Source of the DNA: Sycon ciliatum
Lineage: Eukaryota > Porifera > Calcarea > Leucosolenida > Sycettidae
Length of the DNA stretch: 64,000 nucleotides
Assembly: GCF_964019385.1 (NCBI RefSeq)
Contig: NC_088645.1
Span: 28,489,294-28,553,293, forward strand
Direction of reading: 5' to 3'
Of this stretch, positions 28,295-62,678 are shown piece by piece. The notes beneath the pieces are model-generated. The model had not been told where the DNA came from, searched no databases, and saw only the letters and a program-made list of their open reading frames with translations. How positions within the stretch are numbered: the stretch's first letter is position 1; each line of letters starts with the position of its first letter. A program made the translations under genes and the position numbers.

Positions 28295-29362
28295 GTAAGA
28301 ATTCTGTAGTTGAGGTTTATCTTTAAGAATTTCTCCACTGCAGTGTTGATCTAGCTGGAGAATGTTTGGAAGAATCATGGCTAGGAGAGCATATTTAAAT
28401 CTGGTGGCGATGAACCGTATCACTGCCACTTTTATTTTATTGCGTCTACGCAGACTACACATCATGTTTAACTTAAGAGGCATGTCTGAGAAAACAAGAA
28501 CATATGTGCAAGTCGGTCTCTCAGATTTCGCTCAAATTTTGCAGGTAGGTTTGCTTTGGGGTGTAGATCGACAATCCAAAGCTCGCGCAAAATCTTTTGA
28601 AGGAAACCATTAAATTGGCATGCCCCACAATATTGGCCCAATATTGGCACGATTTATGGGTCTACAAACGAGCCACGGCACAGCGTACAAGAACAAGCTA
28701 CGAAGAAAACTCCATCAAGCCAACATTACCTCACCTTAGAAGAGTTCTTGGGGCAGCTTCACTTAGCCACGCCAGCATCCCAGAAGACGAGGGCAATCAT
28801 CCCTTGACGCCACAAATGATCGTCTTGAAAATAGCCAATTTACAAGCGCTGATAAAACAGCGAGTTACGTCCTCAATTAGCAAACACTATACACCGGCAG
28901 ATAGTAGAACACCTTTTCTAGCACTGAGGACATGTCCCCCATCATCCTTTTGGGGTTTTCTTGAAATAAACAATTTTGAATTTTTCCACTCGACCATTCT
29001 GAAATACGTCCAAACTCATACCTGCGCAGGAAAGCTCGCCCCTCCGCGACGTCTAGTCAGCAATTTCTACTCCAACACCACTCCCAACGCTGCAGAACAA
29101 AGTGTATTGTTGACTCTGACAAGGAAAAGCAGCGGTGATCACTTGTCACTCCAAGCGACAAGCTTCTCCTTGCGCCACAAACATTTTTCGGTGCAACAGT
29201 TGATGCAAAAGTGACTAAATTTTTGCGTGTAGTTTTTGGATTTTACTGCAAGAGGAAAGATGAAATCACGTGCCTCGTGGCACAAGAATGCCAGGTCTCG
29301 TAGCGTGGTAGATCACGGTTCAGCAGTTGTTCCGAGTGACCTTGATCAAGCCCAAATGCACT

Positions 29363-31867: not shown

Positions 31868-33055
31868 ATCACCCGTTGATCTAGATCGGATCAAGTGCAT
31901 CTTGATGTCCAGCTCAAGAGCACGCATGTCGTGTTGTAATTGTAGGCCTTCCAGCCGGGACTTTCCCTCGACATGCAGCACAGAGACTAGGGCGAGTAGG
32001 GTCAAATCACGTTGTTCATGACGTGAGAAATCTGCCATGTGGGCGCGCCACATACCCCGGCTTCATGCAACCAGTACAGTGCAGTACAGTGTAGGCCTCG
32101 GGCTGGCACATGGTCAACTCCAAGCGACCTTGCATGATGGCATGCATGAACCACGGTTATTCCTTGCTGTTGCAGATCTACGTGGATCATCAGCATGTAA
32201 ACTAGCCGTAGTTCCTGTTGAACCATGTTCGGGATGAGCGAGGTTAGTGTGAAAAAATGCATCCCTGTTCTTACTGCAAGAGGAAGTATCTCAAAGAATT
32301 CTTGCCAATGCAATACTCCTAGCGTTATAACAATAGTTTCTGCATGTTCTGAGCAGAGCATGCAAGAAATATAATGCATCTTACCTCCTCCCTCATGGTC
32401 CGTTTCGAATAGCCCCTCAGGAACAATCGTGATCGTGTGCATTGTGTCGTGCACCAGAAAGCATTATTCTACGTCACGTGACGATCCACGTGATTTCTTC
32501 ATTCCTCTTGGAGTAAAATCCAAAAACTACACGCAAAATTACAGTCACTTTTATCAGCGCTTGTAATTTGGCTATTTTCAAGACAATCATTTGTGGCGTC
32601 AAGGGATGATTGCCCTCGTCTTCTGGGATGCTGGCGTGCCTAAGTGGTGCTGCCCGAAGAACTCTTCTAAGGTGAGGTAATGTTGGCTGGATGGAGTTTT
32701 GTTCGTAGCTTGTTCTTGTACGCTGTGCCGTGGCTCGTTTGTAGACCCATAAATCGTGCCAATATTGGACCAATATTGAGGGGTATGCCAATTTCATGGT
32801 TCCCTTCAAAAGATTTTGCGCGGACTTTGGAATGTCGATCTACACCCTAAAGCAAACATACCTGCAAAGTTTGAGCGAAATCTGAGAGATCGACTTGCAC
32901 ATATTATGTTCTGGTTTTCTCAGACATGCTCTCTTAAGGTATCTCGTGTTTGTCTCTTTCTCATCATTGGGCTTATGCAGGGAATAGGGCAAACTAATTT
33001 AGACAGAAATTATTGTGTAGCTGCACTGAACGTGGAAGCTTGCGCTTCCTGCTGA

Positions 33056-42222: not shown

Positions 42223-43198
42223 CTTCCTCCGGAAACAAACACTTCGTGACTTTTTCACTTATTTCCGCTGTTGTTCTGGTAAGCGGACAGTCATCGCAAG
42301 GCAAAGCTGGCGTGCTGGAAACCAAGGGAAGCGGCTATGTTTTGTACTATTGTCCACCAGGCATATTGCCAACAAAAGCATTGCGCTCACTGCTCGTCGT
42401 TGCTAGTTTAAGGTTCAGAATGAGGAAGAGCAGGACAATAGAAGTGAGGAGTAAGAAGAGTGTGAAAAGGATAACAGCTAGAATTTTGAAATATGCGTCA
42501 TCCCAAAGAACACCAGCCAAAGTGCGAATAGGTCGTCAAGGTGTCTAAACTCCAAATGCAAAGATGTGACACCAGCCAAAGTGCGAACAGGTCGTCAAGG
42601 TGTCTAAACTCCAAATGCAAAGATGTGAACTCAGAAAAGCTACAAAATTTCATATCAAAGTCGTCGTTCAGTGGAAGATCTTGCCTTTTTCAGCAGCCTC
42701 CACTGCGATGTCTCCTTGGTAGCATAGGAGGACAGGCGAGATCTCCTCGCAGCGGTCGTGACGTCTCGGGACGACTACAACGCGGAGAGAACTGGGAAGT
42801 GTTTGGATTTTCCTGTACAGGTAAGCGTCGTTCCGAGGCATTCTCCAGAACCAGGTTGACACCAGAGTACCAGTACCATCGCGGTCTCCACCTAGATTCT
42901 AGGGAAGGCACCAGTGTAAATCACGTACTAGTAATAGCAAAGACGACCAAGGGAGCTGAGACGCTGCTCCGTGACGTTCGAAAACGAGTCGATCCACCTG
43001 CACTTTGGTTGGTTCCAGCCGTGATGAATCGAGCGATGGCGACGCAGTCTGAGACTCTATTCCCATCAATTGATTTTGTAGGTATTGTCCATTGAGCATC
43101 TTGAAGTGTTTCTCTTCCATTAGAACACTTTTTTTGAGGACAGTAATCCCTTGAAACGTCATGAGAAAAAGTCACGAAGTGTTTGTTTCCGGAGGACG
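42223..43198 (+). mobile_element. TA-flanked TIR element B
   Basis: A 976-bp element bounded by inverted ends CTTCCTCCGGAAACAAACAC and complement, with TA at 42221-42222 and 43199-43200. The right end has one change (GGAGGACG). It contains a plus-strand frame (about 42690-43095) with YHRGLHLDSREGT, RKRVDPPALW and related blocks shared with element C. A 54-bp tandem duplication (GTCGTCAAGGTGTCTAAACTCC) lies at 42531-42627. Confidence 0.7.
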
Positions 43199-44107
43199 TA
43201 GTTGTGTTATGTGCATTCGGTTATTCGTCCACTGAAGTGATGCAGGATGCGTGCATGAAACAGGTTACATTCACGGTGCAAAGTAGCAATTCACCGTAGG
43301 AAAGGGTTTAGATTTTGCTGTCAATTTTTTCGGTAGCTTTTGGTATCAGTTTAGGCACAAGGACACCCTCATGCTAGGTTCTGATGTTAGCAACTTACTT
43401 CCTCCGGAAACAAAAACTTCGTGACTTTTTTCACTACTTTTCGCTGCTGTTATTTCGCTCTTTCTCCCTGGTTCTGTCAGCCTGAAACACTGACATGACA
43501 TTTCGGAATCGTAGGAAAGCATAATTCATATTCTGGAGAGCCGACAGTCGTCGCAGAGCAAGGGTGTTGACGTTGCAAACAAAGCAAAGCGCATGTCTTT
43601 TTTTCATTTTCGTCCACCAAACGCAATGAGAAGAAACGCACTGCGCTCACTGCTCTTCGTTGCTATGTTTTAGTTCAGAACTTAACAGAGCAGGACAATG
43701 GAACCTAGGAGCAAGAAGAGTGGAAAATGAATAGCAATAGCAGCTAGCGTTTTGAAATTTGCGCCATCCCCGTAACGCCTGTCGGCATGCGAACAGATCG
43801 GCACGATGTCAAAAATATAAAACGATGTCAAAACTATAAAACGATGTCAAAACTATAAAACGAAGCAGAGCAAGATGAACAAGTTCAAAATAGAAGTCAA
43901 CGCTCAGCCACTGCAGAGCCCAGATCTCAGCGTGGATGATGTCGCCTTTTCCAGCAGCCTCGACGATGTGTCCTTCGTCGCAAAGGAGAACAGGCGAGAT
44001 CTGATCGGGGCAGTCGGGAAGTGCTGGTACGACTATGATATCCCTCGGAGGAAATTTGAAATGTTTGGCTCTGCCTGTGTTTGTCCTCGAGCGAGAGCGC
44101 AGGCGGT

Positions 44108-44113
44108 AATGTG
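44108..44113. repeat. Target site duplication (left), AATGTG
   Basis: Six bases immediately before the AGTAGTAAG terminus; repeated at 62324-62329 after the CTTACTACT terminus. Six-base duplication is the Polinton/Maverick signature. Confidence 0.85.
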
Positions 44114-44543
44114 AGTAGTAAGTGCGGGGCGGGTTCTGGTGCACTTTTTGACCTTTGACCTTTGGGCCAAATAAGGCACACTGTGTCGGGCTCGTTTGGT
44201 CTGGCTCGGGGACTCCCCCAGGGTTTGACCTTTGGGTTAAATCAGGCACACTGTGTCGGGCGCGCTTGGTCTGGCCCCGGGACTCCCCCAGGGTTCGACC
44301 TTTGGCCCTGCCATGCCATAAATGTCATCATGTTCTTTTCCGTGGCGACCGTGCACTTGTGCAAGTTCGTTGTATTCGCACCAGGGAGTAGTAAAATACG
44401 TACTATTCCCTGATTTGCACATCGTAGATGTGCAGTGAATGACATATTGCGCATGCGCGCATACGCACGCGGAGCGTGCGACCTTCAGTGGCCCTGCGTG
44501 TGGAAAAGACGTATACGCAAGGTGTACTAGTACACGTGTCATT

Positions 44544-44544
<1 letters not shown>

Positions 44545-44579
<35 letters not shown>

Positions 44580-45180
44580 TCACACGGAAAACTGAGCCTC
44601 TTGTACGGGCAAAATAACACTTTTTGTGAAGAATCAACACACAAAAAAACGAATCATCAGATACAGTATTTACAGAGTCTGTCACTCAGTAGGATCACTG
44701 CACTGTGCAGGTTCACTGGATGCGTGCCTCCGCCGCCACTAGCACAGCAGGGGACTCAGGCATGGCAGGAGCAAACATGCTCCTTGAGCCACGCAGGCAC
44801 ATAGCACCACAACGCACCAGGGCAAACCCAAGGCGGCAGCGCAGCAAGGAGATAACCTGCCCGTATGGCTCCTTACTCTTCTCAGCCAGGAGAGAGGCGA
44901 TCCGCGTGAAAAGAGCATTGGCATGCTTGCCATAGCCACCAGAGGCAGAGAGCACAACGGGCACGAAGGAGGCATGCTCAACTTCACGTACTCGCTCCTC
45001 GTACTTCCGGCGCTTTTCCTGTTCATGGCGTCTGTAGCTAGCAGCGAGGGAGGTGGCACGATTCGAAGACGCAAAAGGGTTGAACACCCGTACAGCAATA
45101 AAGATGCGCTCGAATCGGCCACCCCACACACCACTAGCCGCAACGTCCAGCCGAGCTTGCTCCTCCGTGACAGCTGTGCG
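44545..45180 (-). mobile_element. Retroposon fragment in the partial copy
   Basis: Same insertion as 46831-47466, duplicated with the element end. Target duplication ACGTGTCATTG at 44534-44544 and 45181-45191. Confidence 0.85.
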
Positions 45181-45275
45181 ACGTGTCATTGTAGGGTGAT
45201 AGCCGACCTCATATACGCTGTACGGGGAGATTATTTCCTCAGTATGTTGTAGGCAGTGCTGGAGGTGACGTGACG

Positions 45276-46399
45276 ATGGCGGAGCCAAGTGCAAAACGAT
45301 CTAGGCAGCCCAGACAGCCCACCTCGAGTGCCGTGCGTGGGTTTTTGAAAAAGTTTTCTTTGCCAGGTTCAGGCACTGATCCTCTCGTCTTTTTCAGCAG
45401 CCATCATGACGAGCTCAGACAGGTTCTCCTCGAGGAGCTTCAGTCTCACCCTTTCAAGGTGGTTTTAGTTTTGAGGGTGGAGATGACACGAGAGTCGGCC
45501 ACGGGTAGTACGTCTGCCGTCCCGTTTTTTAGAAGTAGACCGGCTCGGATCCTCAGCGAAGGGGATATTGATAGTGCAGTCAAGACGATGGTGGCGAGGA
45601 TCACTGGTCTTATTGATAAGTGGGTGCAGAACGGATCCGACTGGACCGTTTCTCGAGTGAGACAGCTGGATGTGTCGACAGCAAAGTACACTCCTCTTCG
45701 AGGTGAGTTTCTGTTCATCCGGCAGTGTTTGTTCGAAGCCTGTCGAATTTCTTGTGGAAAGTTGTAGATGTTTTGTACTAGATGTACAGTTTTTCGTGAT
45801 TGTCGAGAGGGTGTAGTTGTGATGTGGTGTTACTCTGAGCAAAGCCTTCGTTGTATTTTTGTGGTGTACTGTAGGTGGTGCAGCTGATATCCCACCGAAA
45901 TTAGAAAAAAAGAAGGCCATCATTAACGTAAAGAACAACGATGACAGGTGTTTGATGTGGGCGTTGTTGTCAGCGCTGCACCCCGTCGAACAGAATGCTG
46001 AGCGGGCATCCAAGTACACCCAGTATGTTGATGAGCTGCGGTTCGATGGTGTGATGTTCCCTGCAACGCTCCGTGATGTACCCAAAGTGGAGTTACAGAA
46101 TGGTCTTGCAATCAATGTGTTTGGCTACGAGGGGAATCTGTACCCACTCTATCTCAGCGAGCGACATGAGACTCCAATCAACCTCCTTCTACATGACAAC
46201 CACTTCACATGGATAAAAAACTTCAGTCGTGCATGTGAGAATAAGAACAAGCGGGCAACACACTACTGCTTGCGATGCCTCTCCGCACACAAAACAGCAG
46301 ACTCCCTGCAGCATCACAGCGAGAGATGTCAGGTGATGAAGCCCGTGCCAGTCATCATGCCCACAGCAAAGGACAGCATTCTCAAATATACAAATTTGA
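45276..46399 (+). pseudogene. Truncated PolB gene (first 1.5 exons)
   Basis: Exon 1 (45276-45702) and the first 525 bases of exon 2 (45875-46399) of the family B DNA polymerase described at 47562-52106. The reading frame runs into a TAG at 46402-46404 created by the start of the next element copy. It keeps the N-terminal domain and the CCHC-like finger but none of the exonuclease or polymerase motifs, so it cannot make an active enzyme. Confidence 0.85.
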
Positions 46400-46433
46400 A
46401 GTAGTAAGTGCGGGGCGGGTTCTGGTGCACTTT

Positions 46434-46600
46434 TTGACCTTTGACCTTTGGGCCAAATAAGGCACACTGTGTCGGGCTCGTTTGGTCTGGCTCGGGGACT
46501 CCCCCAGGGTTTGACCTTTGGGTTAAATAAGGCACACTGTGTCGGGCGCGCTTGGTCTGGCCCCGGGACTCCCCCAGGGTTCGACCTTTGGCCCTGCCAT
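46434..46600 (+). repeat. Subterminal 70-bp repeats (left)
   Basis: GACCTTTG-initiated units start at 46443, 46513 and 46583, each followed by AAATAAGGCACACTGTGTCG in the first two. The mirror set is at about 62123-62290, and another is in the partial copy at 44157-44315. Subterminal repeats of this kind often bind transposition proteins; that is inference. Confidence 0.8.
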
Positions 46601-46829
46601 GCCATAAATGTCATCATGTTCTTTTCCGTGGCGACCGTGCACTTGTGCAAGTTCGTTGTATTCGCACCAGGGAGTAGTAAAATACGTACTATTCCCTGAT
46701 TTGCACATCGTAGATGTGCAGTGAATGACATATTGCGCATGCGCGCATACGCACGCGGAGCGTGCGACCTTCAGTGGCCCTGCGTGTGGAAAAGACGTAT
46801 ACGCAAGGTGTACTAGTACACGTGTCATT

Positions 46830-46830
<1 letters not shown>

Positions 46831-46866
<36 letters not shown>

Positions 46867-47466
46867 TCACACGGAAAACTGAGCCTCTTGTACGGGCAAA
46901 ATAACACTTTTTGTGAAGAATCAACACACAAAAAACGAATCATCAGATACAGTATTTACAGAGTCTGTCACTCAGTAGGATCACTGCACTGTGCAGGTTC
47001 ACTGGATGCGTGCCTCCGCCGCCACTAGCACAGCAGGGGACTCAGGCATGGCAGGAGCAAACATGCTCCTTGAGCCACGCAGGCACATAGCACCACAACG
47101 CACCAGGGCAAACCCAAGGCGGCAGCGCAGCAAGGAGATAACCTGCCCGTATGGCTCCTTACTCTTCTCAGCCAGGAGAGAGGCGATCCGCGTGAAAAGA
47201 GCATTGGCATGCTTGCCATAGCCACCAGAGGCAGAGAGCACAACGGGCACGAAGGAGGCATGCTCAACTTCACGTACTCGCTCCTCGTACTTCCGGCGCT
47301 TTTCCTGTTCATGGCGTCTGTAGCTAGCAGCGAGGGAGGTGGCACGATTCGAAGACGCAAAAGGGTTGAACACCCGTACAGCAATAAAGATGCGCTCGAA
47401 TCGGCCACCCCACACACCACTAGCCGCAACGTCCAGCCGAGCTTGCTCCTCCGTGACAGCTGTGCG
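46831..47466 (-). mobile_element. 3'-tailed retroposon fragment, left arm only
   Basis: 636 bp with a ~35-base T run at the left (its poly(A) tail on the minus strand) and coding for the post-RT conserved region (VRVFNPFASSN, RKYEERVREVEHASF, VLSASGGYG, CLRGSRS). The target duplication ACGTGTCATTG lies at 46820-46830 and 47467-47477. The right arm keeps a single uninterrupted ACGTGTCATTG (complement at 61894-61904), a clear empty site. It ends 95 bases before the PolB start codon, so it may disturb that promoter. Confidence 0.88.
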
Positions 47467-47561
47467 ACGTGTCATTGTAGGGTGATAGCCGACCTCATAT
47501 ACGCTGTACGGGGAGATTATTTCCTCAGTATGTTGTAGGCAGTGCTGGAGGTGACGTGACG

Positions 47562-50500
47562 ATGGCGGAGCCAAGTGCAAAACGATCTAGGCAGCCCAGA
47601 CAGCCCACCTCGAGTGCCGTGCGTGGGTTTTTGAAAAAGTTTTCTTTGCCAGGTTCAGGCACTGATCCTCTCGTCTTTTTCAGCAGCCATCATGACGAGC
47701 TCAGACAGGTTCTCCTCGAGGAGCTTCAGTCTCACCCCTTCAAGGTGGTTTTAGTTTTGAGGGTGGAGATGACACGAGAGTCGGCCACGGGTAGTACGTC
47801 TGCCGTCCCGTTTTTTAGAAGTAGACCGGCTCGGATCCTCAGCGAAGGGGATATTGATAGTGCAGTCAAGACGATGGTGGCGAGGATCACTGGTCTTATT
47901 GATAAGTGGGTGCAGAACGGATCCGACTGGACCGTTTCTCGAGTGAGACAGCTGGATGTGTCGACAGCAAAGTACACTCCTCTTCGAGGTGAGTTTCTGT
48001 TCATCCGGCAGTGTTTGTTCGAAGCCTGTCGAATTTCTTGTGGAAAGTTGTAGATGTTTTGTACTAGATGTACAGTTTTTCGTGATTGTCGAGAGGGTGT
48101 AGTTGTGATGTGGTGTTACTCTGAGCAAAGCCTTCGTTGTATTTTTGTGGTGTACTGTAGGTGGTGCAGCTGATATCCCACCGAAATTAGAAAAAAAGAA
48201 GGCCATCATTAACGTAAAGAACAACGATGACAGGTGTTTGATGTGGGCGTTGTTGTCAGCGCTGCACCCCGTCGAACAGAATGCTGAGCGGGCATCCAAG
48301 TACACCCAGTATGTTGATGAGCTGCGGTTCGATGGTGTGATGTTCCCTGCAACGCTCCGTGATGTACCCAAAGTGGAGTTACAGAATGGTCTTGCAATCA
48401 ATGTGTTTGGCTACGAGGGGAATCTGTACCCACTCTATCTCAGCGAGCGACATGAGACTCCAATCAACCTCCTTCTACATGACAACCACTTCACATGGAT
48501 AAAAAACTTCAGTCGTGCATGTGAGAATAAGAACAAGCGGGCAACACACTACTGCTTGCGATGCCTCTCCGCACACAAAACAGCAGACTCCCTGCAGCAT
48601 CACAGCGAGAGATGTCAGGTGATGAAGCCCGTGCCAGTCATCATGCCCACAGCAAAGGACAGCATTCTCAAATATACAAATTTGAAGCACAGGATGGTGG
48701 CTCCATATATCATTTACGCTGATACGGAGGCCATCATTGAGCCGATGGAGGAACAGCATGGCAGCAGCACTGTACGCACAGCACGTCACGTGCCATGCAG
48801 CATCAGGTATGTTTTGTTGTTGGTGTTGTTTTTGACTAATGTTTGCTGTACTCGGGCCTGCACAGTGCTTGCTGTTATTCCTTCTTGTCTTGTTCACAAA
48901 TTAGGTGTTCGTGTTGTAGTATGTGCATTTTGTGTGATTCCATTTTTTCAAAATCACTTATTCTTACTTTCCCTCTTCTTTTATGCTCTTGTAGATATGC
49001 TGCCATCCGATCCAACGGTGAAGTCCGGGGCGAGTTTGACGACTGCAGTGAGAATGCCATTCACAACTTTTTCGACAGTCTCAAAGAGTTGGAAGGCAGT
49101 ATCCAGGAGGATTTGGCTGATATCAAGCCAATCCGCATGACAGCAGAACTGGAGCTTGAGTTTCAGAACGCAGTCAACTGCTGGATATGTGACGAAGTAC
49201 TTGGAGAAGATCGTGTTCGTGATCATGATCATCTCACTGGTAAGTATTATAATTTTTTTGTTTATTTTTGTTGTTTTGCAGTTGTGTGTAGATATGCACA
49301 TGATGTGTATAGTGCATTTTCATGTCTTTGTAGCTGTTTGCGTCTGTGTTTTATCACGGTGTATTGAATTGTATTGTCTGTGGTATCACCTTCACTGTAG
49401 ATGTTTACTATGTTTGTGTATTCCCCTCTTTCTGAATATCTGCACAGGCGACTATCGTGGTGCCGCACACTACCAGTGTAATATTCAGCTGAGTATCTAC
49501 CCAGATCGCCAGATCATTCCGGTTGTGTTTCACAACCTGAAAGGGTATGATGCCCACCACCTCATCGCCCACATTGGTATGACCGAGGTTGAAGAGATGG
49601 AGTACGAGGATTCTAACCAGCGTAAGCGGATTAGGAAGGTTGGTGAGATCAGTGTCATCGCCAACAACATGGAGAAATATATTTCATTCAAGTGGCGTCA
49701 GTACCGCTTCATTGACTCCATGGCCTTCTTGAACTCCTCTCTTGACTCGTTGGTGAGCAACACCCCGGAAGATGCCTTCAAGCTTACTCGTACATTAGCC
49801 CATCATGACCTTCTCCGGCGTAAGGGTGTCTACCCCTATGAGTACATGGACTCCTTTGCTCGGTTTGATGAGACACAGCTGCCACCTAAATCAGCATTTG
49901 AGTCTAGTTTGACTGGAGAAGGTATCAGTGATGCCGACTATGCCCATGCTCAGAACGTATGGCAGGTAAGCAGCTTGTGCCTTCTGTATTGACCCTCGGA
50001 ATTTCCCTGATGCCATGCTTTTTGCATTATTGTGCTCTACTTATGACTTTGTATGCTGTTGTGATGTGCCCTACACATTTTTTTTGTACTCATTGCTCTC
50101 TATCCGTGGATATGTGGATGCTTGTGTGTATGGATGTGTGCATGCGTGTGTGCGTTGCTGTTTTTTGTTTTGTTTGTTTTTTGTTTTGCAGACATTTGAG
50201 TGCAGTACAATGGAGGCCTATCATGACCTCTATTTGCAAACAGATGTCTATCTTCTAGCAGATGTCTTTGAGCATTTCCGCAAGACGGCATACAAGACGT
50301 ATGGGTTGGATCCAGCTCATTACCTTACTCTCCCAGGTATGTTCATCAGTCTTTGTTGTTGTCCAATGTATTCTCTCCTTTAGATGGTGTTCTCTGTTAG
50401 TATTCTTGTGCTTTCTTGTCGGTGTATTTTTATACTTTTTGCACGGTGTATTGACTTTCGTGTTTGTGTTCTGGTGTGTTGCATGGTGTTATGTAGGATA

Positions 50501-52106
50501 TGCATGGGATGCTCTACTACGGTTCACCCAGATTGAACTGCAGCTGCTCACGGATGTAGACATGCATCTGTTTGTCGAAGCCGGTCTACGTGGGGGCATC
50601 TCAATGGCGTCGCAGCGGTACGGCAAGGCCAACAACCCAACGATGGGTCAGTACAATCCTGCCGAGCCCACATCATACCTGCTATACCTTGATGCCAACA
50701 ACCTGTATGGCTGGGCTATGTGCCAAAGTATGCCGACATCTGAGTTTGCCTGGTGTGATAAGAACCTGTCCGAGATACTGGCACACCCTGTAGATTCGAG
50801 CACTGGGTTCATTGTGGAGTGTGATCTTGAGGTACCCTCTTCGCTTCACCACTACTTCAATGATTATCCACTCGCACCGGAAGTGATGAGAACATTCTCA
50901 GATAAGCTATCACCATACCAACAAGCACTTGTGGAGGAGCTCAAAGTGTCAGCCGTAGATGGAGTCAAGTTGACACCCAGTCTCCTACCCAAGTCCAAGT
51001 ATGTGTTACACTACCGTACACTGCAGCTGTATTCGCGTCTGGGCATGGTGGTGACCGCTGTTCACAAGGTGTTGGGATTTCAGCAGAGTGCCTGGATGGC
51101 TCCCTACATCAATCTGAACACTGCACTTCGCACGAGGGCTACAACCGACTTTGAGAAGAGCTTTTACAAGGTAAATGCAACCGTTGTGTGCAGTCCCGTA
51201 TGTTGTTGTTGTTGTTTTGTCACAATGTCATATACATGTATGGTGCAAGTGTGACGTGGAGTATGCTAATTGAAAATATGCTGATGTGAAGGAATGGCAT
51301 GATATGATTCTCATGTGTCATGTTTGCCTGTTTGTGTGCTGCAGCTGATGAACAACTCAGTCTTTGGCAAGACGATGGAGAACGTTCGTAATCGAACACG
51401 CATCGATCTCTTGCGAGAAGAAAGTGAGGAGCAGGTACTGAGGGCAGTGAGCAAGCCTACATATGTGCGGCATGACATTTTCCCGAACGGGCTTGTCGGA
51501 ATAGAAAAGCAGTACACTGAGATCAAGCTCAACAAGCCGGTCTATGTGGGTATGTCGATACTAGACCTGTCAAAGGTACACATGTACTCCTTCTACTACG
51601 ATGTGCTGAAGGAGCAGTATGGTAGCAGAATCCGGCTGTTGTACACCGACACCGACTCTGTTATTGTGCACATCACCACCGGTGATGTTTATGCAGAGAT
51701 GGATCTGTCTCTGTATGACACCAGCAACTTTCCCACTGACCATCCTCAGTACACTTCTGCCAATAAGAAAGTGGTTGGCAAATTCAAAGATGAGCTTGGT
51801 GGGAAATCCATGGTGGAGTTTGTAGGTCTAAGATCGAAGATGTACTCCTACATCGGACTGGAATCGGCCAAACGGGCCAAGGGTGTGCGAAAGGCAGTCC
51901 TGGCAAATACCATCACCCACAAGGACTATGTAGATGCACTGCTCAGTCATCGTGTGTCTTCCAGGCCTATGACGGGTCTCCGATCACATTGCCACACAGT
52001 GTATGAGGAGGTAACCACCAAGGTGGCATTGTCTCCATTCGACTGCAAGCGGTACATACTGGATGATGGCATGGCCACACTTGCATATGGTCACAAGGAC
52101 ATTTAA
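47562..52106 (+). CDS. polB: Protein-primed-type family B DNA polymerase, left arm, seven exons
   Basis: Exons: 47562-47988, 48161-48806, 48995-49239, 49448-49965, 50192-50336, 50497-51170, 51345-52106. All introns (150-225 bp) are GT-AG and phases join cleanly, giving 1138 residues. In order: N-terminal domain; CCHC-like finger HYCLRC…HHSERC (about 274-294); Exo I IIYADTEA (about 330); a Cys2/HDH insert, CWIC…RDHDHLTG-DYRGAAHYQC (420-450), like endonuclease VII; Exo II FHNLKGYD (about 468-474); Exo III YLLADVF (632-638); motif A YLDANNLYGW (724-733); motif B NNSVFGKTMEN (888-898); motif C YTDTDS (985-990). All catalytic Asp/Glu are present. Family role: element replication with proofreading. 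The start is the ATG in MAEPSAK, since an in-frame GTG lies 6 bases upstream. Confidence 0.9.
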
Positions 52107-52502
52107 TGGACAGGACCCCACATTGAACATGTTTCATCATTTTCATACAAAAACTCCCCGCCGTTCTTCTGTCATTAATTCCTCCTATCTTGGCATGTCG
52201 GGCCGGCTCCAACAATATACATTTTTTGTTAAATATTTCAGGCTTGTGCCTCAATCATATTGCAGGATATAGTGCATCGTGCGGTATAATAATCTTCATT
52301 GTATCATCAAATATTACCCTACACACTTTGGGTTGCAGTGTGTGCACAGCATAGTCCATATATCATCAAATTGATCAAGTTCAGTATCTGCGGGCATATA
52401 TTTCCCCAGCTTGAGAAAATGCTTATATACTTGCGTAAATTTATGCTCACAATGATTACATTAAAATGAGATTAACTCTGCCACACATTATATTACCAGA
52501 CA
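52107..52502. other. PolB 3' flank, AT-rich
   Basis: About 400 bases without an ORF; mirror at 56868-57263. Confidence 0.5.
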
Positions 52503-53314
52503 CTGTTGTTGTTGTTGTTGTCGTCGTCGTCGTTGTTGTTGTTGTTGTTGTTGGTTGTTGTTGGCTGTTGTTGGCTGTTGTCGGTTGTTGTTGGTTGTTG
52601 TTGGTTGTTGTTGTTGGTTGTTGTTGTTGGTTGTTGTTGTTGGTTGTTGTTGTTGGTTGTTGTTGTTGGTTGTTGTTGTTGGTTGTTGTTGGTTGTTGTT
52701 GGTTGTTGTTGGTTGTTGTCGGTTGTTGTCGGTTGTTGTTGGTTGTTGTTGGTTGTTGTTGGTGGTTGTTGTTGGTTGTTGTTGTTGGTTGTTGTTGTTT
52801 GTTGTTGGTTGTTGTTGGCTGTTGTCGGTTGTTGTCGGTTGTTGTTGGTTGTTGTTGGTTGTTGTTGGCTGTTGTTGTTGGTTGTTGGTTGTTGGTTGTT
52901 GTCGGTTGTTGTTGGTTGTTCTTGTTGGTTGTTGTTGGTTGTTGTTGTTAGTTGTTGGTTGTTGTTGGTTGTTGTTGTTTGTTGTTGGTTGTTGTTGGTT
53001 GTTGTTGGTTGTTGTTGGTTGTTGTTGTTGGTTGTTGTTGTTGGTTGTTGTTGTTGGTTGTTGTTGTTTGTTGTTGGTTGTTGTTGGCTGTTGTCGGTTG
53101 TTGTCGGTTGTTGTTGGTTGTTGTTGGTTGTTGTTGGCTGTTGTTGTTGGTTGTTGGTTGTTGTTGTTGGTTGTTGTCGGTTGTTGTTGGTTGTTGTTGT
53201 TGGTTGTTGTTGGTTGTTGTTGGTTGTTGTTGGTTGTTGTTGTTTGTTGTTGGTTGTTGTTGGTTGTTGTTGGTTGTTGTTGGTTGTTGTTGGTTGTTGT
53301 TGTTTGTTGTCCCA
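52503..53314 (+). repeat. GTT-rich minisatellite, left arm
   Basis: About 810 bases made of GTT triplets and TTGGTTGTTG units with scattered GGCTG and TCGG variants. Higher-order blocks repeat within it: the run GGCTGTTGTCGGTTGTTGTC occurs twice, near 52816 and 53086. All long frames across it are products of the repeat and are not called as genes. Confidence 0.92.
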
Positions 53315-53997
53315 TGGGACAATGAAACTACAAAGGAAAGTGGCTACTGACTAGGCACCTGTGACCACGCCAATGCCTGAAACTGATGAAGCTGAGGAAC
53401 GGAGGATCCTTGAGTTGGCCCTTAGCCGACTTGAGCGTGATTAACGCAGTGTTTACACTCTCCTCAGCAAATCCCATCAAATCGGAGCACATGTTGACGG
53501 GAGCTTAGAGTTGGCACTGCTCAGTAATGGCAAAATAATTTAAATGGCCGCCAAGACCTTGCTCAATAGGCGGAAGAGTCACCTGTATGCAATACGTTGT
53601 ATATGTCGTGTGTGTGTATTGTATATGCATTGGGCTCGAGTAACTCAAGAGCATTCGCTCAGTAACACTCAACACTCCCACCATCAAATGGGAATACACG
53701 TGTTGAAGCAAGCTTAGAATGAGCGTTACTTGGTAATAACAGAATGAACCCGATGACCTACATGTACGTAAACAGGTGGCTAAATCACTGGTACACAAAT
53801 GCATTCGGGATGAGATAAGCATTAACTCACTCATCAACTGTAATATGTTCCATGCGGTCGCCAGGTGTGTGTCTCTGCTAGGTAAATGGACGGGATAAGG
53901 TATTATGTTCAGTTCATGTTCGAGTCCGTTGTAGTTTTGACAGAGATCGAGATGTCACGCTGGCTGCTGAATTGGATGACGGCAACGCAACCCAATA
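53315..53997 (+). other. Between minisatellite and transposase
   Basis: A short reading, MKLQRKVATD…ETDEAEERRI…LSRLERD (53322-53444), looks like the acidic, helical C-terminal end of some protein. In the left arm it has a TAG stop at about 53352 where the right arm has GAG. A frame at 53886-54089 is acidic and Arg-rich (DTSDSDEDERRRKC) and may be the start of the transposase region. Confidence 0.35.
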
Positions 53998-54665
53998 GTG
54001 GTCAGGAAGTTGGTCCACGAGCTGCTGTTGTCCAACGGAAAGATGATACTAGTGATAGTGACGAAGATGAACGCAGAAGAAAGTGTTAAATTTGTTCTCA
54101 GGAAGAGGAAGAGAGTGACGATATCATCCTTGCTCCTACCTGTCATGTTGAATCCAGGATTTCTGGGTTTTGTAGGATCGTTGCCACGCAAGCGTCGGTT
54201 CTGGTCGGCTCATGCTGATGGCGACGATGATGGTGTTTGGGAAAAAGAGATCTTGGGGACATGGAGTAGACTTGGACAAGACTTCCAAGGTGTCCAAGAT
54301 GAGAGGTTCATCGAAAAGTTTCGAGTGACCAAATGCACATTTCTGGCTGTGCACGATTTGGTCAAAGATACCATTGATTGTCAGACGACGCACTTGCGCA
54401 AGTAATCTCTGGGAAAAACGTCTTGCAATATTCCTCCAATGGATGGCTCATGCCGAGGAATTCCAGCAGTTGGCAAAAGAGTATCGCATTAGTACTTCTA
54501 CAGTCCATAGCATCGTGCAAGCGTGTGTATCTACATTCCGGCAACTTGCCCCTAAGTTCATTGTCTTTCCCCAAGACCAGCTCAATGTAGCTGACGTTGT
54601 CTCCGGCTTTAAATCTCTGTGCCACCTACCTGGCTGTGCTGGTGCCATTGACGGCACTTTCATGA
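53998..54665 (+). pseudogene. PIF/Harbinger-type transposase (HARBI1-like), left half-gene
   Basis: N-terminal half of a DDE_Tnp_4-type nuclease. Segments: DERFIEKFRVTKCTFLAVHD (the conserved RFxxxFRVxxxTF helix), then after a one-base frameshift near 54400 the EKRLAIFLQWMAHAEEFQQL block and a helix-turn-helix-like YRISTSTVHSIV. Next come LPGCAGAIDGTF, the first catalytic Asp motif (GxIDGT), and the palindrome axis, where coding turns into its own antisense. The second and third catalytic acidic residues are therefore missing. Both arms share the frameshift, so the gene was broken before or at formation of the palindrome. Cannot be an active transposase. Confidence 0.8.
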
Positions 54666-54686
54666 TTTTCATGAAAGTGCCGTCAA
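54648..54686. other. Palindrome axis
   Basis: ACGGCACTTTCATGA, spacer TTT (54666-54668), TCATGAAAGTGCCGT. Self-complementarity continues outwards for kilobases. The first mismatch I see is 10 bases beyond this core (CCATTGAC versus the mirror CCGTTGAC). Confidence 0.95.
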
Positions 54687-55336
54687 CGGCACCAGCACAG
54701 CCAGGTAGGTGGCACAGAGATTTAAAGCCGGAGACAACGTCATCTACATTGAGCTGGTCTTGGGGAAAGACAATGAACTTAGGGGCAAGTTGCCGGAATG
54801 TAGATACACACGCTTGCACGATGCTATGGACTGTAGAAGTACTAATGCGATACTCTTTTGCCAACTGCTGGAATTCCTCGGCATGAGCCATCCATTGGAG
54901 GAATATTGCAAGACGTTTTTCCCAGAGATCACTTGCGCAAGTGCGTCGTCCGACAATCAATGGTATCTTTGACCAAATCGTGCACAGCCAGAAATGTGCA
55001 TTTGGTCACTCGAAACTTTTCGATGAACCTCTCATCTTGGACACCTTGGAAGTCTTGTCCAAGTCTACTCCATGTCCCCAAGATCTCTTTTTCCCAAACA
55101 CCATCATCGTCGCCATCAGCATGAGCCGACCAGAACCGACGCTTGCGTGGCAACGATCCTACAAAACCCAGAAATCCTGGATTCAACATGACAGGTAGGA
55201 GCAAGGATGATATCGTCACTCTCTTCCTCTTCCTGAGAACAAATTTAACACTTTCTTCTGCGTTCATCTTCGTCACTATCACTAGTATCATCTTTCCGTT
55301 GGACAACAGCAGCTCGTGGACCAACTTCCTGACCAC
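54669..55336 (-). pseudogene. PIF/Harbinger-type transposase (HARBI1-like), right half-gene
   Basis: Mirror of 53998-54665, with the same frameshift and truncation at the axis. Differences: GAVDGT instead of GAIDGT, a Lys near the axis where the left has Ile, DCRTTH instead of DCQTTH, and NVDD instead of NVAD. The two halves meet head to head, so neither can be completed from the other. Confidence 0.8.
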
Positions 55337-56020
55337 TATTGGGTTGCGTTGCCGTCATCCAATTCAGCAGCCAGCGTGACATCTCGATCTCTGTCAAAAC
55401 TACAACGGACTCGAACATGAACTGAACATAATACCTTATCCCGTCCATTTACCTAGCAGAGACACACACCTGGCGACCGCATGGAACATATTACAGTTGA
55501 TGAGTGAGTTAATGCTTATCTCATGCCGAATGCATTTGTGTACCAGTGATTTAGCCACCTGTTTACGTACATGTAGGTCATCGGGTTCATTCTGTTATTA
55601 CCAAGTAACGCTCATTCTAAGCTTGCTTCAACACGTGTATTCCCATTTGATGGTGGGAGTGTTGAGTGTTACTGAGCGAATGCTGTTGAGTTACTCGAGC
55701 CCAATGCATATACAATACACACACACGACATATACAACGTATTGCATACAGGTGACTCTTCCGCCTATTGAGCAAGGTCTTGGCGGCCATTTAAATTATT
55801 TTGCCATTACTGAGCAGTGCCAACTCTAAGCTCCCGTCAACATGTGCTCCGATTTGATGGGATTTGCTGAGGAGAGTGTAAACACTGCGTTAATCACGCT
55901 CAAGTCGGCTAAGGGCCAACTCAAGGATCCTCCGTTCCTCAGCTTCATCAGTTTCAGGCATTGGCGTGGTCACAGGTGCCTCGTCAGTAGCCACTTTCCT
56001 TTGTAGTTTCATTGTCCCAT

Positions 56021-56867
56021 GGGACAACAAACAACAACAACCAACAACAACCAACAACAACCAACAACAACCAACAACAACCAACAACAACCAACAACAA
56101 CCAACAACCAACAACAACCAACAACAAACAACAACAACCAACAACAACCAACAACAACAACCAACAACAACCGACAACAACCAACAACAACAACCAACAA
56201 CCAACAACAACAGCCAACAACAACCAACAACAACCAACAACAACCGACAACAACCGACAACAGCCAACAACAACCAACAACAACCAACAACAACCAACAA
56301 CAACCAACAACAACCAACAACAACAACCAACAACAACAACAACCAACAACAACCAACAACAAACAACAACAAACAACAACAACCAACAACAACCAACAAC
56401 AAACAACAACAACCAACAACAACCAACAAGAACAACCAACAACAACCGACAACAACCAACAACAACAACCAACAACCAACAACAACAGCCAACAACAACC
56501 AACAACAACCAACAACAACCGACAACAACCGACAGCAGCCAACAACAACCAACAACAAACAACAACAACCAACAACAACAACCAACAACAACCACCAACA
56601 ACAACCAACAACAACCAACAACAACCAACAACAACCGACAACAACCAACAACAACCAACAACAACCAACAACAACCAACAACAACAACCAACAACAACAA
56701 CCAACAACAACAACCAACAACAACAACCAACAACAACAACCAACAACAACAACCAACAACAACAACCAACAACAACCAACAACAACCGACAACAGCCAAC
56801 AACAGCCAACAACAACCAACAACAACAACAACAACGACGACGACGACGACAACAACAACAACAACAG
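56021..56867 (-). repeat. GTT-rich minisatellite, right arm
   Basis: Mirror of 52503-53314 but 36 bp longer, the main length difference between the arms inside the retroposon. On the plus strand it reads CAACAA/CCAACAACAA. Confidence 0.92.
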
Positions 56868-57263
56868 TGTCTGGTAATATAATGTGTGGCAGAGTTAATC
56901 TCATTTTAATGTAATCATTGTGAGCATAAATTTACGCAAGTATATAAGCATTTTCTCAAGCTGGGGAAATATATGCCCGCAGATACTGAACTTGATCAAT
57001 TTGATGATATATGGACTATGCTGTGCACACACTGCAACCCAAAGTGTGTAGGGTAATATTTGATGATACAATGAAGATTATTATACCGCACGATGCACTA
57101 TATCCTGCAATATGATTGAGGCACAAGCCTGAAATATTTAACAAAAAATGTATATTGTTGGAGCCGGCCCGACATGCCAAGATAGGAGGAATTAATGACA
57201 GAAGAACGGCGGGGAGTTTTTGTATGAAAATGATGAAACATGTTCAATGTGGGGTCCTGTCCA

Positions 57264-60200
57264 TTAAATGTCCTTGTGACCATATGCAAGTGTGGCCATG
57301 CCATCATCCAGTATGTACCGCTTGCAGTCGAATGGAGACAATGCCACCTTGGTGGTTACCTCCTCATACACTGTGTGGCAATGTGATCGGAGACCCGTCA
57401 TAGGCCTGGAAGACACACGATGACTGAGCAGTGCATCTACATAGTCCTTGTGGGTGATGGTATTTGCCAGGACTGCCTTTCGCACACCCTTGGCCCGTTT
57501 GGCCGATTCCAGTCCGATGTAGGAGTACATCTTCGATCTTAGACCTACAAACTCCACCATGGATTTCCCACCAAGCTCATCTTTGAATTTGCCAACCACT
57601 TTCTTATTGGCAGAAGTGTACTGAGGATGGTCAGTGGGAAAGTTGCTGGTGTCATACAGAGACAGATCCATCTCTGCATAAACATCACCGGTGGTGATGT
57701 GCACAATAACAGAGTCGGTGTCGGTGTACAACAGCCGGATTCTGCTACCATACTGCTCCTTCAGCACATCGTAGTAGAAGGAGTACATGTGTACCTTTGA
57801 CAGGTCTAGTATCGACATACCCACATAGACCGGCTTGTTGAGCTTGATCTCAGTGTACTGCTTTTCTATTCCGACAAGCCCGTTCGGGAAAATGTCATGC
57901 CGCACATATGTAGGCTTGCTCACTGCCCTCAGTACCTGCTCCTCACTTTCTTCTCGCAAGAGATCGATGCGTGTTCGATTACGAACGTTCTCCATCGTCT
58001 TGCCAAAGACTGAGTTGTTCATCAGCTGCAGCACACAAACAGGCAAACATGACACATGAGAATCATATCATGCCATTCCTTCACATCAGCATATTTTCAA
58101 TTAGCATACTCCACGTCACACTTGCACCATACATGTATATGACATTGTGACAAAACAACAACAACAACATACGGGACTGCACACAACGGTTGCATTTACC
58201 TTGTAAAAGCTCTTCTCAAAGTCGGTTGTAGCCCTCGTGCGAAGTGCAGTGTTCAGATTGATGTAGGGAGCCATCCAGGCACTCTGCTGAAATCCCAACA
58301 CCTTGTGAACAGCGGTCACCACCATGCCCAGACGCGAATACAGCTGCAGTGTACGGTAGTGTAACACATACTTGGACTTGGGTAGGAGACTGGGTGTCAA
58401 CTTGACTCCATCTACGGCTGACACTTTGAGCTCCTCCACAAGTGCTTGTTGGTATGGTGATAGCTTATCTGAGAATGTTCTCATCACTTCCGGTGCGAGT
58501 GGATAATCATTGAAGTAGTGGTGAAGCGAAGAGGGTACCTCAAGATCACACTCCACAATGAACCCAGTGCTCGAATCTACAGGGTGTGCCAGTATCTCGG
58601 ACAGGTTCTTGTCACACCAGGCAAACTCAGATGTCGGCATACTTTGGCACATAGCCCAGCCATACAGGTTGTTGGCATCAAGGTATAGCAGGTATGATGT
58701 GGGCTCGGCAGGATTGTACTGACCCATTGTTGGGTTGTTGGCCTTGCCGTACCGCTGCGACGCCATTGAGATGCCCCCACGTAGACCGGCTTCGACAAAC
58801 AGATGCATGTCTACATCCGTGAGCAGCTGCAGTTCAATCTGGGTGAACCGTAGTAGAGCATCCCATGCATATCCTACATAACACCATGCAACACACCAGA
58901 ACACAAACACGAAAGTCAATACACCGTGCAAAAAGTATAAAAATACACCGACAAGAAAGCACAAGAATACTAACAGAGAACACCATCTAAAGGAGAGAAT
59001 ACATTAGACAACAACAAAGACTGATGAACATACCTGGGAGAGTAAGGTAATGAGCTGGATCCAACCCATACGTCTTGTATGCCGTCTTGCGGAAATGCTC
59101 AAAGACATCTGCTAGTAGATAGACATCTGTTTGCAAATAGAGGTCATGATAGGCCTCCATTGTACTGCACTCAAATGTCTGCAAAACAAAAAACAAACAA
59201 AACAAAAAACAGCAACGCACACACGCATGCACACATCCATACACACAAGCATCCACATATCCACGGATAGAGAGCAATGAGTACAAAAAAAATGTGTAGG
59301 GCACATCACAACAGCATACAAAGTCATAAGTAGAGCACAATAATGCAAAAAGCATGGCATCAGGGAAATTCCGAGGGTCAATACAGAAGGCACAAGCTGC
59401 TTACCTGCCATACGTTCTGAGCATGGGCATAGTCGGCATCACTGATACCTTCTCCAGTCAAACTAGACTCAAATGCTGATTTAGGTGGCAGCTGTGTCTC
59501 ATCAAACCGAGCAAAGGAGTCCATGTACTCATAGGGGTAGACACCCTTACGCCGGAGAAGGTCATGATGGGCTAATGTACGAGTAAGCTTGAAGGCATCT
59601 TCCGGGGTGTTGCTCACCAACGAGTCAAGAGAGGAGTTCAAGAAGGCCATGGAGTCAATGAAGCGGTACTGACGCCACTTGAATGAAATATATTTCTCCA
59701 TGTTGTTGGCGATGACACTGATCTCACCAACCTTCCTAATCCGCTTACGCTGGTTAGAATCCTCGTACTCCACCTCTTCAACCTCGGTCATACCAATGTG
59801 GGCGATGAGGTGGTGGGCATCATACCCTTTCAGGTTGTGAAACACAACCGGAATGATCTGGCGATCTGGGTAGATACTCAGCTGAATATTACACTGGTAG
59901 TGTGCAGCACCACGATAGTCGCCTGTGCAGATATTCAGAAAGAGGGGAATACACAAACATAGTAAACATCTACAGTGAAGGTGATACCACAGACAATACA
60001 ATTCAATACACCGTGATAAAACACAGACGCAAACAGCTACAAAGACATGAAAATGCACTATACACATCATGTGCATATCTACACACAACTGCAAAACAAC
60101 AAAAATAAACAAAAAAATTATAATACTTACCAGTGAGATGATCATGATCACGAACACGATCTTCTCCAAGTACTTCGTCACATATCCAGCAGTTGACTGC

Positions 60201-61808
60201 GTTCTGAAACTCAAGCTCCAGTTCTGCTGTCATGCGGATTGGCTTGATATCAGCCAAATCCTCCTGGATACTGCCTTCCAACTCTTTGAGACTGTCGAAA
60301 AAGTTGTGAATGGCATTCTCACTGCAGTCGTCAAACTCGCCCCGGACTTCACCGTTGGATCGGATGGCAGCATATCTACAAGAGCATAAAAGAAGAGGGA
60401 AAGTAAGAATAAGTGATTTTGAAAAAATGGAATCACACAAAATGCACATACTACAACACGAACACCTAATTTGTGAACAAGACAAGAAGGAATAACAGCA
60501 AGCACTGTGCAGGCCCGAGTACAGCAAACATTAGTCAAAAACAACACCAACAACAAAACATACCTGATGCTGCATGGCACGTGACGTGCTGTGCGTACAG
60601 TGCTGCTGCCATGCTGTTCCTCCATCGGCTCAATGATGGCCTCCGTATCAGCGTAAATGATATATGGAGCCACCATCCTGTGCTTCAAATTTGTATATTT
60701 GAGAATGCTGTCCTTTGCTGTGGGCATGATGACTGGCACGGGCTTCATCACCTGACATCTCTCGCTGTGATGCTGCAGGGAGTCTGCTGTTTTGTGTGCG
60801 GAGAGGCATCGCAAGCAGTAGTGTGTTGCCCGCTTGTTCTTATTCTCACATGCACGACTGAAGTTTTTTATCCATGTGAAGTGGTTGTCATGTAGAAGGA
60901 GGTTGATTGGAGTCTCATGTCGCTCGCTGAGATAGAGTGGGTACAGATTCCCCTCGTAGCCAAACACATTGATTGCAAGACCATTCTGTAACTCCACTTT
61001 GGGTACATCACGGAGCGTTGCAGGGAACATCACACCATCGAACCGCAGCTCATCAACATACTGGGTGTACTTGGATGCCCGCTCAGCATTCTGTTCGACG
61101 GGGTGCAGCGCTGACAACAACGCCCACATCAAACACCTGTCATCGTTGTTCTTTACGTTAATGATGGCCTTCTTTTTTTCTAATTTCGGTGGGATATCAG
61201 CTGCACCACCTACAGTACACCACAAAAATACAACGAAGGCTTTGCTCAGAGTAACACCACATCACAACTACACCCTCTCGACAATCACGAAAAACTGTAC
61301 ATCTAGTACAAAACATCTACAACTTTCCACAAGAAATTCGACAGGCTTCGAACAAACACTGCCGGATGAACAGAAACTCACCTCGAAGAGGAGTGTACTT
61401 TGCTGTCGACACATCCAGCTGTCTCACTCGAGAAACGGTCCAGTCGGATCCGTTCTGCACCCACTTATCAATAAGACCAGTGATCCTCGCCACCATCGTC
61501 TTGACTGCACTATCAATATCCCCTTCGCTGAGGATCCGAGCCGGTCTACTTCTAAAAAACGGGACGGCAGACGTACTACCCGTGGCCGACTCTCGTGTCA
61601 TCTCCACCCTCAAAACTAAAACCACCTTGAAAGGGTGAGACTGAAGCTCCTCGAGGAGAACCTGTCTGAGCTCGTCATGATGGCTGCTGAAAAAGACGAG
61701 AGGATCAGTGCCTGAACCTGGCAAAGAAAACTTTTTCAAAAACCCACGCACGGCACTCGAGGTGGGCTGTCTGGGCTGCCTAGATCGTTTTGCACTTGGC
61801 TCCGCCAT
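57264..61808 (-). CDS. polB: Protein-primed-type family B DNA polymerase, right arm, seven exons
   Basis: Mirror of the left gene. Exons in transcript order: 61382-61808, 60564-61209, 60131-60375, 59405-59922, 59034-59178, 58200-58873, 57264-58025; splice sites and reading frame are intact. Differences I could see: one amino-acid change (EEVEYED here, EEMEYED on the left) and four silent changes (GCC/GCT and CTT/CTA, in exons 4 and 5, plus ACG/ACA and GAT/GAC in exon 6). All exonuclease, HDH-insert and polymerase motifs are kept. This copy has no retroposon in its upstream region, so its native promoter is more likely to work. Transcribed away from its own terminus and toward the axis, as is the left gene. 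Confidence 0.9.
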
Positions 61809-62122
61809 CGTCACGTCACCTCCAGCACTGCCTACAACATACTGAGGAAATAATCTCCCCGTACAGCGTATATGAGGTCGGCTATCACCCTACAATGACA
61901 CGTGTACTAGTACACCTTGTGTATACGTCTTTTCCACACGCAGGGCCACTGAAGGTCGCACGCTCCGCGTGCGTATGCGCGCATGCGCAATATGTCATTC
62001 ACTGCACATCTACGATGTGCAAATCAGGGAATAGTACGTATTTTACTACTCCCTGGTGCGAATACAACGAACTTGCACAAGTGCACGGTCGCCACGGAAA
62101 AGAACATGATGACATTTATGGC

Positions 62123-62290
62123 ATGGCAGGGCCAAAGGTCGAACCCTGGGGGAGTCCCGGGGCCAGACCAAGCGCGCCCGACACAGTGTGCCTTATTTAA
62201 CCCAAAGGTCAAACCCTGGGGGAGTCCCCGAGCCAGACCAAACGAGCCCGACACAGTGTGCCTTATTTGGCCCAAAGGTCAAAGGTCAAA
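62123..62290 (-). repeat. Subterminal 70-bp repeats (right)
   Basis: Mirror of 46434-46600. Confidence 0.8.
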
Positions 62291-62323
62291 AAGTGCACCA
62301 GAACCCGCCCCGCACTTACTACT

Positions 62324-62329
62324 AATGTG
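62324..62329. repeat. Target site duplication (right), AATGTG
   Basis: Matches 44108-44113; directly follows the CTTACTACT end. Confidence 0.85.
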
Positions 62330-62678
62330 TAACAGTGCTGCAGCGGTACCGCGGTCTTCGCCGAGATTTTGGAGAAGGCATTCAGGTAACAACTAAGACG
62401 ATAAGGGACGCGGAGATGCTTCTTCGCAGCATACTACATCGTGTCGATCGACCTGCCAATTGGACCAGTTTCAGCCGTGATGAGTGGAGCGATGGCGACC
62501 CAGACTGCGACTCTACTTCCACTAATCGATCCTGATGATACTGTAGATATGTAGATTGAATGTGTTGAAGTGTATCTCTTGCAAAAGAACACTTCTGTTG
62601 AGCACAGTAACTCCTTGAAAGATCATTTAAAAAAGTCACGAAGTTTTTGTTTCCGGAGGAAGTATGAGCTTTTTTTCG

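Follow-up and report, generated by a model that had tools for sequence, protein, structure and literature searches.

The genome of the sponge Sycon ciliatum contains a family of palindromic mobile elements with the ends of Polintons (Mavericks) and a retained PolB gene. The copy that we describe lies in a window of 64,000 nucleotides (C3:28489294-28553293 of a 538-Mb, 313-contig assembly; C-numbers denote contigs). The family is a palindromic, integration-defective, PolB-retaining subfamily of Polintons; an origin by fold-back and dependence on helpers are its most likely, if unproved, mechanism.

Self-comparison of the window revealed an inverted pair at 47467-61903 with 99.1% identity, and terminal stretches of 432 bp with 99.8% identity. 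The left arm (46400-54665, plus strand; 8,266 bp) and the right arm (54669-62323, minus strand; 7,655 bp) meet at a TTT spacer (54666-54668, unstranded), and the axis reads GGCACTTTCATGA-TTT-TCATGAAAGTGCC. A first-pass annotation, made from the letters alone, had described arms of about 7.7 and 8.3 kb with a 3-base spacer, which proved accurate. Outside a retro-insert and a minisatellite the arms differed in 17 alignment columns, two of which fall in the spacer, where the alignment was split (54667/8); the GTT minisatellite adds 56 differing columns. The palindrome is real, and the likeness of its arms is far beyond chance. Its outer tips, AGTAGTAAG...CTTACTACT, begin with AG, as that annotation had noted, in the form AGTAGT...ACTACT.

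The 6-bp target-site duplication AATGTG was found at 44108-44113 and 62324-62329 (both unstranded), enclosing a unit of 18,210 bp (44114-62323). An identical 6-bp repeat had been claimed directly beside the palindrome; the repeat exists, with its left copy at 44108 and not adjoining 46400. A palindrome flanked by AATGTG at 46394 was rejected, the motif being absent at that position. The unit opens with a second, direct copy (D copy) of the left arm's first 2,286 bp (44114-46399, plus strand; 99.7% identical to 46400-48687), which holds the tip of the terminal inverted repeat, the retro-insert and the 5' part of PolB. The D copy has one substitution found in neither arm and may be a real duplication or an assembly error. 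Insertion of the unit interrupted a repeat of ~1.05 kb with 65-bp inverted ends (43396-62664, unstranded). The rejoined flanks matched a paralogue at 42275-43201 with 67% identity over 966 bp. As this alignment with the uninterrupted paralogue crosses the junction, the inserted unit was defined as 44114-62323; the same match confirms that the palindrome sits inside a third element.

When an axis-side query was run against the genome (24/24 candidates scored), paired inverted matches appeared at many loci. Eighteen palindromic loci, of two centre types, were checked in fetched DNA and make up the window family. Nine share the window axis: the window, C12:26.34 (centre rearranged), C12:12.43, C5:19.10, C1:15.32, C3:4.43, C6:0.87, C10:19.75 (centre deleted) and C10:26.13 Mb (most of one arm deleted). 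A transposase gene that adjoins the axis does not run past it at any of these nine loci, nor in fragment L031, and a fragment at C1:52.06 Mb ends just beyond a window-type axis. At C5:19.1 and C1:15.3 Mb the centre is CATG-TTT-CATG, a 4-bp stem with a 3-base loop; the shorter centre of the window would fit a 16-bp loss from a centre of this type. The second centre, in which an inner block of 450 bp is flipped, occurs at C9:33.31, C12:28.93, C8:6.83, C4:36.45, C1:13.23, C3:30.77, C10:16.21 and C12:16.58 Mb and on C209 (six of the nine were compared with the arm; C8, C4 and C1:13.23 were compared with the C9 copy). The first-pass annotation had proposed looking for several loci with one axis, and this is what was found, nine for each centre. 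It had also considered that other copies might be ordinary Polintons and the window the sole palindrome; ordinary Polintons do exist, and the window is one palindrome among 18. Convergent PolB pairs were present at 17/18 loci, 16 of them found by a PolB DNA search of the genome (40/163 candidates scored) and C3:4.43 Mb added by protein search; C10:26.13 Mb has a single PolB. A database protein, P0121, reads across the palindrome axis. On C209 (94216-101215, L055) the centre block is repeated asymmetrically, a further rearrangement at the axis.

Exact 6-bp duplications flanked the AGTAGT tips at 15/18 palindromic loci. In addition to AATGTG they were GTCATT, TTGCTG, GCCATT, AACCGT, AGCCAC, TAGTCA and AAGGGC in a first set of seven palindromes, and GAGCGC, CACAAG, GTGCGG, ACCATC, CAAAGA, ACCATT and ATCACA in a second. 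The palindromes thus have two hallmarks of Polintons, the AGTAGT...ACTACT inverted ends and the 6-bp duplication. The tip AGTAGTWAGTGCGGG occurred 347 times in the genome (168 + 179), and its reversed control 0 times; places were listed for the first 100 of the 347. A first tip test covered 13 elements (seven palindromes, four elements containing capsid-gene matches and two not typed), and the duplications matched in 13/13 when the outer right end of the C7 element was used; its inner end failed. This C7 locus (27010008-27043064) appears to be two stacked ordinary Polintons with capsid and integrase genes twice: ACGAAC is common to both outer tips and does not match at the inner one (27027623), and the presence of an internal tip recalls the D copy of the window. 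At C13:14271094 and 14272586 two terminal repeats stand in tandem on the same strand, 1.5 kb apart.

The PolB gene was located by tblastn with residues 189-1281 of the PolB of a Polinton-like virus contig (L001, IMG/VR 3300028392_002905). Seven matched pieces make up the left-arm gene (47817-52106, plus strand), and the right-arm gene lies at 57264-61553 on the minus strand. Two replicase genes had been claimed to stand head to head; with plus in the left arm and minus in the right, they converge. The pieces are collinear with the L001 PolB at 26-54% identity by piece and down to E=1e-52, the first piece being weak (E=0.28), and several exon borders have canonical GT-AG splice signals. These matches suggest a PolB of the protein-primed kind, whose relatives carry PF03175. 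The pieces gave no PolB match in Pfam and a single weak DNA-polymerase match in PHROGs (E=0.005); one piece gave nothing useful against PDB sequences, and one had no match among phages. No relative of seven other L001 proteins (tblastn, E<0.01) or of six proteins of an ordinary sponge Polinton (L088) was found in the window, nor did two rve integrase queries yield a tblastn match there. The reported lack of capsid, ATPase, protease and integrase genes agrees with these searches, and a Polinton-like element that is almost wholly inverted repeat is supported.

Ordinary Polintons in the same genome have PolB genes 97-99% identical to those of the palindromes. One of them (C12:16428894-16444384) shares the palindromes' tips. 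It has a terminal repeat of 428 bp and a PolB 97% identical to the palindrome PolB over 1.1 kb, and shows no inverted arm within the fetched part. It encodes an rve integrase above Pfam's cut-off; its chromo and adenovirus-protease matches fell below the cut-off, and one frame with weak AAA matches was labelled ATPase. A further gene is presumably the capsid gene, judging from the usual Polinton gene order; searches of Pfam, PDB sequences and PHROGs gave this capsid-like frame no convincing match. Capsid-gene DNA was found at full length at at least 34 further places with 99-100% identity (40/167 candidates scored), and integrase DNA at at least 33 further places with 98-100% identity (40/119 candidates scored); because of these numbers of near-identical copies, the ordinary family has probably been active recently. 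Among the matches listed, 0/42 for the capsid gene and 0/40 for the integrase fell inside the 18 palindromes, the edges being predicted for 3/18 intervals. Eleven window-family palindromes were 13.9-15.5 kb long (median 15.1), a set that omits the window, C1:13.23, C12:12.43 and C10:26.13 (enlarged or cut) and C9, C12:28.93 and C209 (both tips not available). Nine ordinary elements with tips known measured 14.2-16.4 kb (median 15.5), the interrupted 21.1-kb element at C2:27.05 being omitted. These lengths fit, without showing, a size filter such as packaging.

A PolB tree of 16 rows (palindromic rows from 8/18 loci, five ordinary rows, one not typed) contained a 100/100 branch that splits the five ordinary rows from the palindromic rows and the untyped one. 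Rows with the second centre, from two loci, grouped at 100/98. Within each of 16 loci the arms had 0-5 differences per ~820 bp. At C3:4.4 Mb a single difference separated the locus's own arms, compared with 11-12 to the nearest other locus, and at C6:0.9 Mb there were 5 compared with 18-21; the contrast comes from these two loci, the remaining ones being too similar. Changes therefore reach both arms. The arms of a palindrome are homogenised, as if one were copied from the other in each cycle, or by conversion. The last PolB exon had no stop in 17/17 rows (8 palindromic, 5 ordinary and 1 untyped locus), and none among 35 listed palindromic copies. Its nonsynonymous/synonymous ratio was 0.20-0.45, as against 0.30 between two ordinary copies, values derived from 2-6 changes in each class.

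Palindromes with other break points were also found. At C12:9.68 Mb two capsid-gene matches face each other in opposite orientation, and the locus (C12:9678600-9687500, L129; 8.9 kb) is self-inverted over 8,885 bp at 99.0%. It follows the ordinary element L088 from 8284 to 3770 and then back from 3896 to 8300, at 99.5-99.8% identity. In this Polinton family it is thus a palindrome that doubles the other end of the element, the capsid side, with its fold inside the ATPase frame, and it is the one such locus among the matches listed. A PolB protein search (148/461 scored) gave, at 59-62% identity, at least 12 pairs of converging PolB genes separated by under 10 kb. Four were fetched (L121-L128): C1:9.92, C10:8.87 and C2:16.36 Mb form one divergent lineage and C3:2.88 Mb another. 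All four cores (4/4) are inverted at 98.2-99.6%, with a spacer of 245 bp and a piece of ATPase at it at C3:2.88 Mb. PolB is retained in their arms, along with portions of the integrase and of a 222-aa gene, and these palindromes therefore fold elsewhere in the element. The palindromes span ~13.8 kb at C10:8.87 Mb and ~15.2 kb at C3:2.88 Mb, and both are candidate bounded mobile units.

We consider it probable that the locus in the window is a copy of a palindromic, integration-defective Polinton subfamily that originated by snap-back, replicates with its own PolB and is inserted in trans by the integrase of ordinary Polintons. The parent Polinton would by then have been linked to a minisatellite and a portion of a Harbinger-like transposase gene. 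During protein-primed strand-displacement replication, the growing 3' end would fold back at a short inverted sequence (CATG-TTT-CATG) and copy its own strand, giving a linear palindrome both of whose ends are the PolB-side terminus. Such a molecule could be replicated with its own PolB, because it has two origins and two PolB genes. The integrase of ordinary Polintons, acting on identical tips, would then insert it with a 6-bp duplication, and the PolB-bearing kind would have become an amplifying subfamily.

Several observations weigh against this scenario. The palindrome is known from assembled DNA alone, not as a replication intermediate, RNA or particle. Fold-back does not predict the D copy, at least one tip is missing at its predicted position at C9, C12:28.93 and C209 (3/18), and at C10:26.1 Mb the palindrome is no longer complete. 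Chromosomal gene conversion could also homogenise the arms, and the PolB ratios come from the few changes given above. Outside the window family, the capsid-side palindrome at C12:9.68 Mb was defined without reading its tips, and the fetched edges at C10:8.87 and C3:2.88 Mb have no 6-bp duplication or AG tip.

Among the alternatives, the best surviving one is a single founding palindrome made by host chromosomal replication or repair and mobilised later by Polinton integrase and PolB. It accounts equally well for the family-level observations, and the single PolB lineage among the sampled loci is in its favour. It is challenged by at least four separate foldings with different break points (PolB side, capsid side and two other lineages) and by the second centre, which requires an additional fold-back. 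Because at least four separate foldings occurred in the Polintons of this genome, recurrent, element-driven folding is favoured, and we regard a chromosomal founder as improbable.

It is very unlikely that the palindromes are a separate autonomous class moved by PolB alone, without the Polinton integrase. The open PolB frames, the low nonsynonymous ratio and the 347 tips would suit such a class. The tips and 6-bp duplications are, however, those of coexisting ordinary Polintons that encode an rve integrase, no integrase relative was found in the window, and none of the 40 listed integrase matches lies in the 18 palindromes. To be autonomous, a self-synthesising transposon must encode the means of both replication and integration; here a PolB was found and no relative of an integrase. 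As the palindrome encodes no integrase while its ordinary relatives carry one, autonomy is not supported. Of the palindromic class of self-replicating transposon that the first-pass annotation had proposed, the class is supported, with 18 loci and shared axes, and self-replication in the autonomous sense is not.

Long perfect palindromes are a known class of assembly artefact, produced by missed-adapter or chimeric reads; faulty assembly might also explain the D copy, and the loci are known from the assembly and not from reads. For the window family an artefact was nevertheless rejected and has next to no probability: exact 6-bp duplications bound the unit, which sits in a repeat whose paralogue is uninterrupted, the flanks of the unit are direct and not mirrored, 14 other loci have exact duplications, the retro-insert of the left arm has its empty site in the right, and each arm has private changes. 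Equally negligible, and rejected for this family, is an inverted duplication made in place by break repair of an inserted ordinary Polinton, independently at each site: fold-back repair of chromosome breaks does yield inverted duplications, and could still apply to the singletons at C12:9.68, C10:8.87 and C3:2.88 Mb, at whose edges no duplication has been read, but it would not give one axis at many loci with different duplications, would not leave the two copies of one end enclosed by an exact 6-bp duplication, and does not fit the single lineage of the sampled palindromic PolBs.

Beyond the snap-back subfamily, a broader and more tentative possibility is that palindromic Polintons are a recurrent satellite class. 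Independent folding might have occurred in several Polinton lineages and, in one of them, at either end. The PolB-doubled kind, at about 14-15 kb, approaches the 15.5 kb of the ordinary form, so it might be replicated, size-selected and perhaps packaged by helper Polintons, and interfere with them.

Further features of the unit were mapped as follows. A terminal repeat of the ordinary-Polinton type (~430 bp, tip AGTAGTAAG) occupies 46400-46830 (plus strand), with its mirror copy at 61893-62323. It is followed by a poly-A retro-insert framed by the 11-bp ACGTGTCATTG (46831-47466, minus strand), also present in the D copy at ~44545-45180. This 636-bp block starts with 35 T and is confined to the left arm, the site being uninterrupted in the right arm; most simply, it is a retro-insert that entered one arm of an existing palindrome. 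Its body was found at at least 38 further genomic places at 96-100% identity (40/1206 candidates scored). Its frame matched no Pfam family, and it was therefore not named a LINE. When the unit was compared with the ordinary Polinton at C12:16.43 Mb, a junction emerged at 52475/52476 (unstranded), with Polinton-derived sequence to the left and the minisatellite and transposase piece to the right. The GTT-rich minisatellite lies at 52505-53310 (plus strand) in the left arm, with its right-arm counterpart at 56024-56866. The PIF/Harbinger-like transposase piece, in two frames (53998-54665, plus strand; mirror 54669-55336), is cut at the axis after GAIDGTFM and matched HTH_Tnp_4 at E=0.0011, under Pfam's cut-off. 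A relative at C4:41.38 Mb (L060; DNA 66% identical) has a 536-aa frame with DDE_Tnp_4 at E=6.8e-25 that extends beyond the axis point. A complete DDE transposase of the PIF/Harbinger kind is not present here, the gene being truncated at the axis, and the piece was rejected as a mobility gene for that reason.

Elsewhere in the window, inverted 814-bp arms (18010-18823 and 19475-20288; 99.5% identical, ~650 bp between them) are possibly a separate fold-back repeat, with related copies near 28471-29351, 31865-32938 and 20284-21035. A tandem repeat with a period of ~250 bp and copies 94-97% identical lies at 10501-11768.

Published descriptions, in the parts available, give Polintons the end motif (AGT)2//(ACT)2 (PMC8097293), perfect 6-bp duplications and a length of ~15 kb, and describe intact vertebrate Mavericks as intronless (PMC8097293, PMC6431247). 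The palindromes share the end motif, the duplications, the length and a PolB of apparently protein-primed kind, and are kin to ordinary Polintons. They differ in that their 7-8 kb arms adjoin at an axis, that PolB is present twice in convergent orientation, and that no relative of an integrase, protease, ATPase or capsid could be found; unlike PolB of the intact vertebrate Mavericks as described there, their PolB has introns. L001 is collinear with them in PolB but has an A32-type (Pox_A32) ATPase, an rve integrase, PolB in one frame, a frame that we take to be capsid-like, and no inverted repeat of at least 40 bp in its 13,008 bases. A profile scan of viral contigs recovered only the contig of L001, the tip pattern did not occur in viral contigs, and GTDB contigs gave 9 short metagenome-bin loci. 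Among titles and abstracts in the open-licence literature searched, we recognised none on palindromic Polintons. A survey of cryptophyte elements accepted terminal repeats of 100 bp-8 kb, judging from the part available, and very long repeats may occur in its tables (PMC12220804).

Like foldback transposons and miniature inverted-repeat transposable elements (MITEs), the palindromes have very long inverted repeats, and they too would be non-autonomous and mobilised in trans; unlike these, they encode a replicative DNA polymerase and have Polinton tips and 6-bp duplications. Defective palindromic adenovirus genomes and parvovirus snap-back genomes have one end mirrored and need a helper for the missing functions. 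The sponge palindromes likewise have one end mirror-duplicated around a short-hairpin axis, but they are integrated, occur at many loci and retain PolB. Defective genomes of the adenovirus type form in the course of protein-primed replication outside the chromosome and rely on a helper; the sponge palindromes may do likewise. Protein-primed replication is generally assumed for Polintons, but to our knowledge little direct evidence exists for its free intermediates; a palindrome integrating as a unit is the genomic footprint that such an intermediate would be expected to leave. Assembly and annotation filters that discard palindromes would conceal such elements in other genomes. Palindrome formation is a recurrent route, open to testing, by which non-autonomous Polintons can arise, and the palindromes are possibly a transposon counterpart of the defective genomes of adenoviruses.

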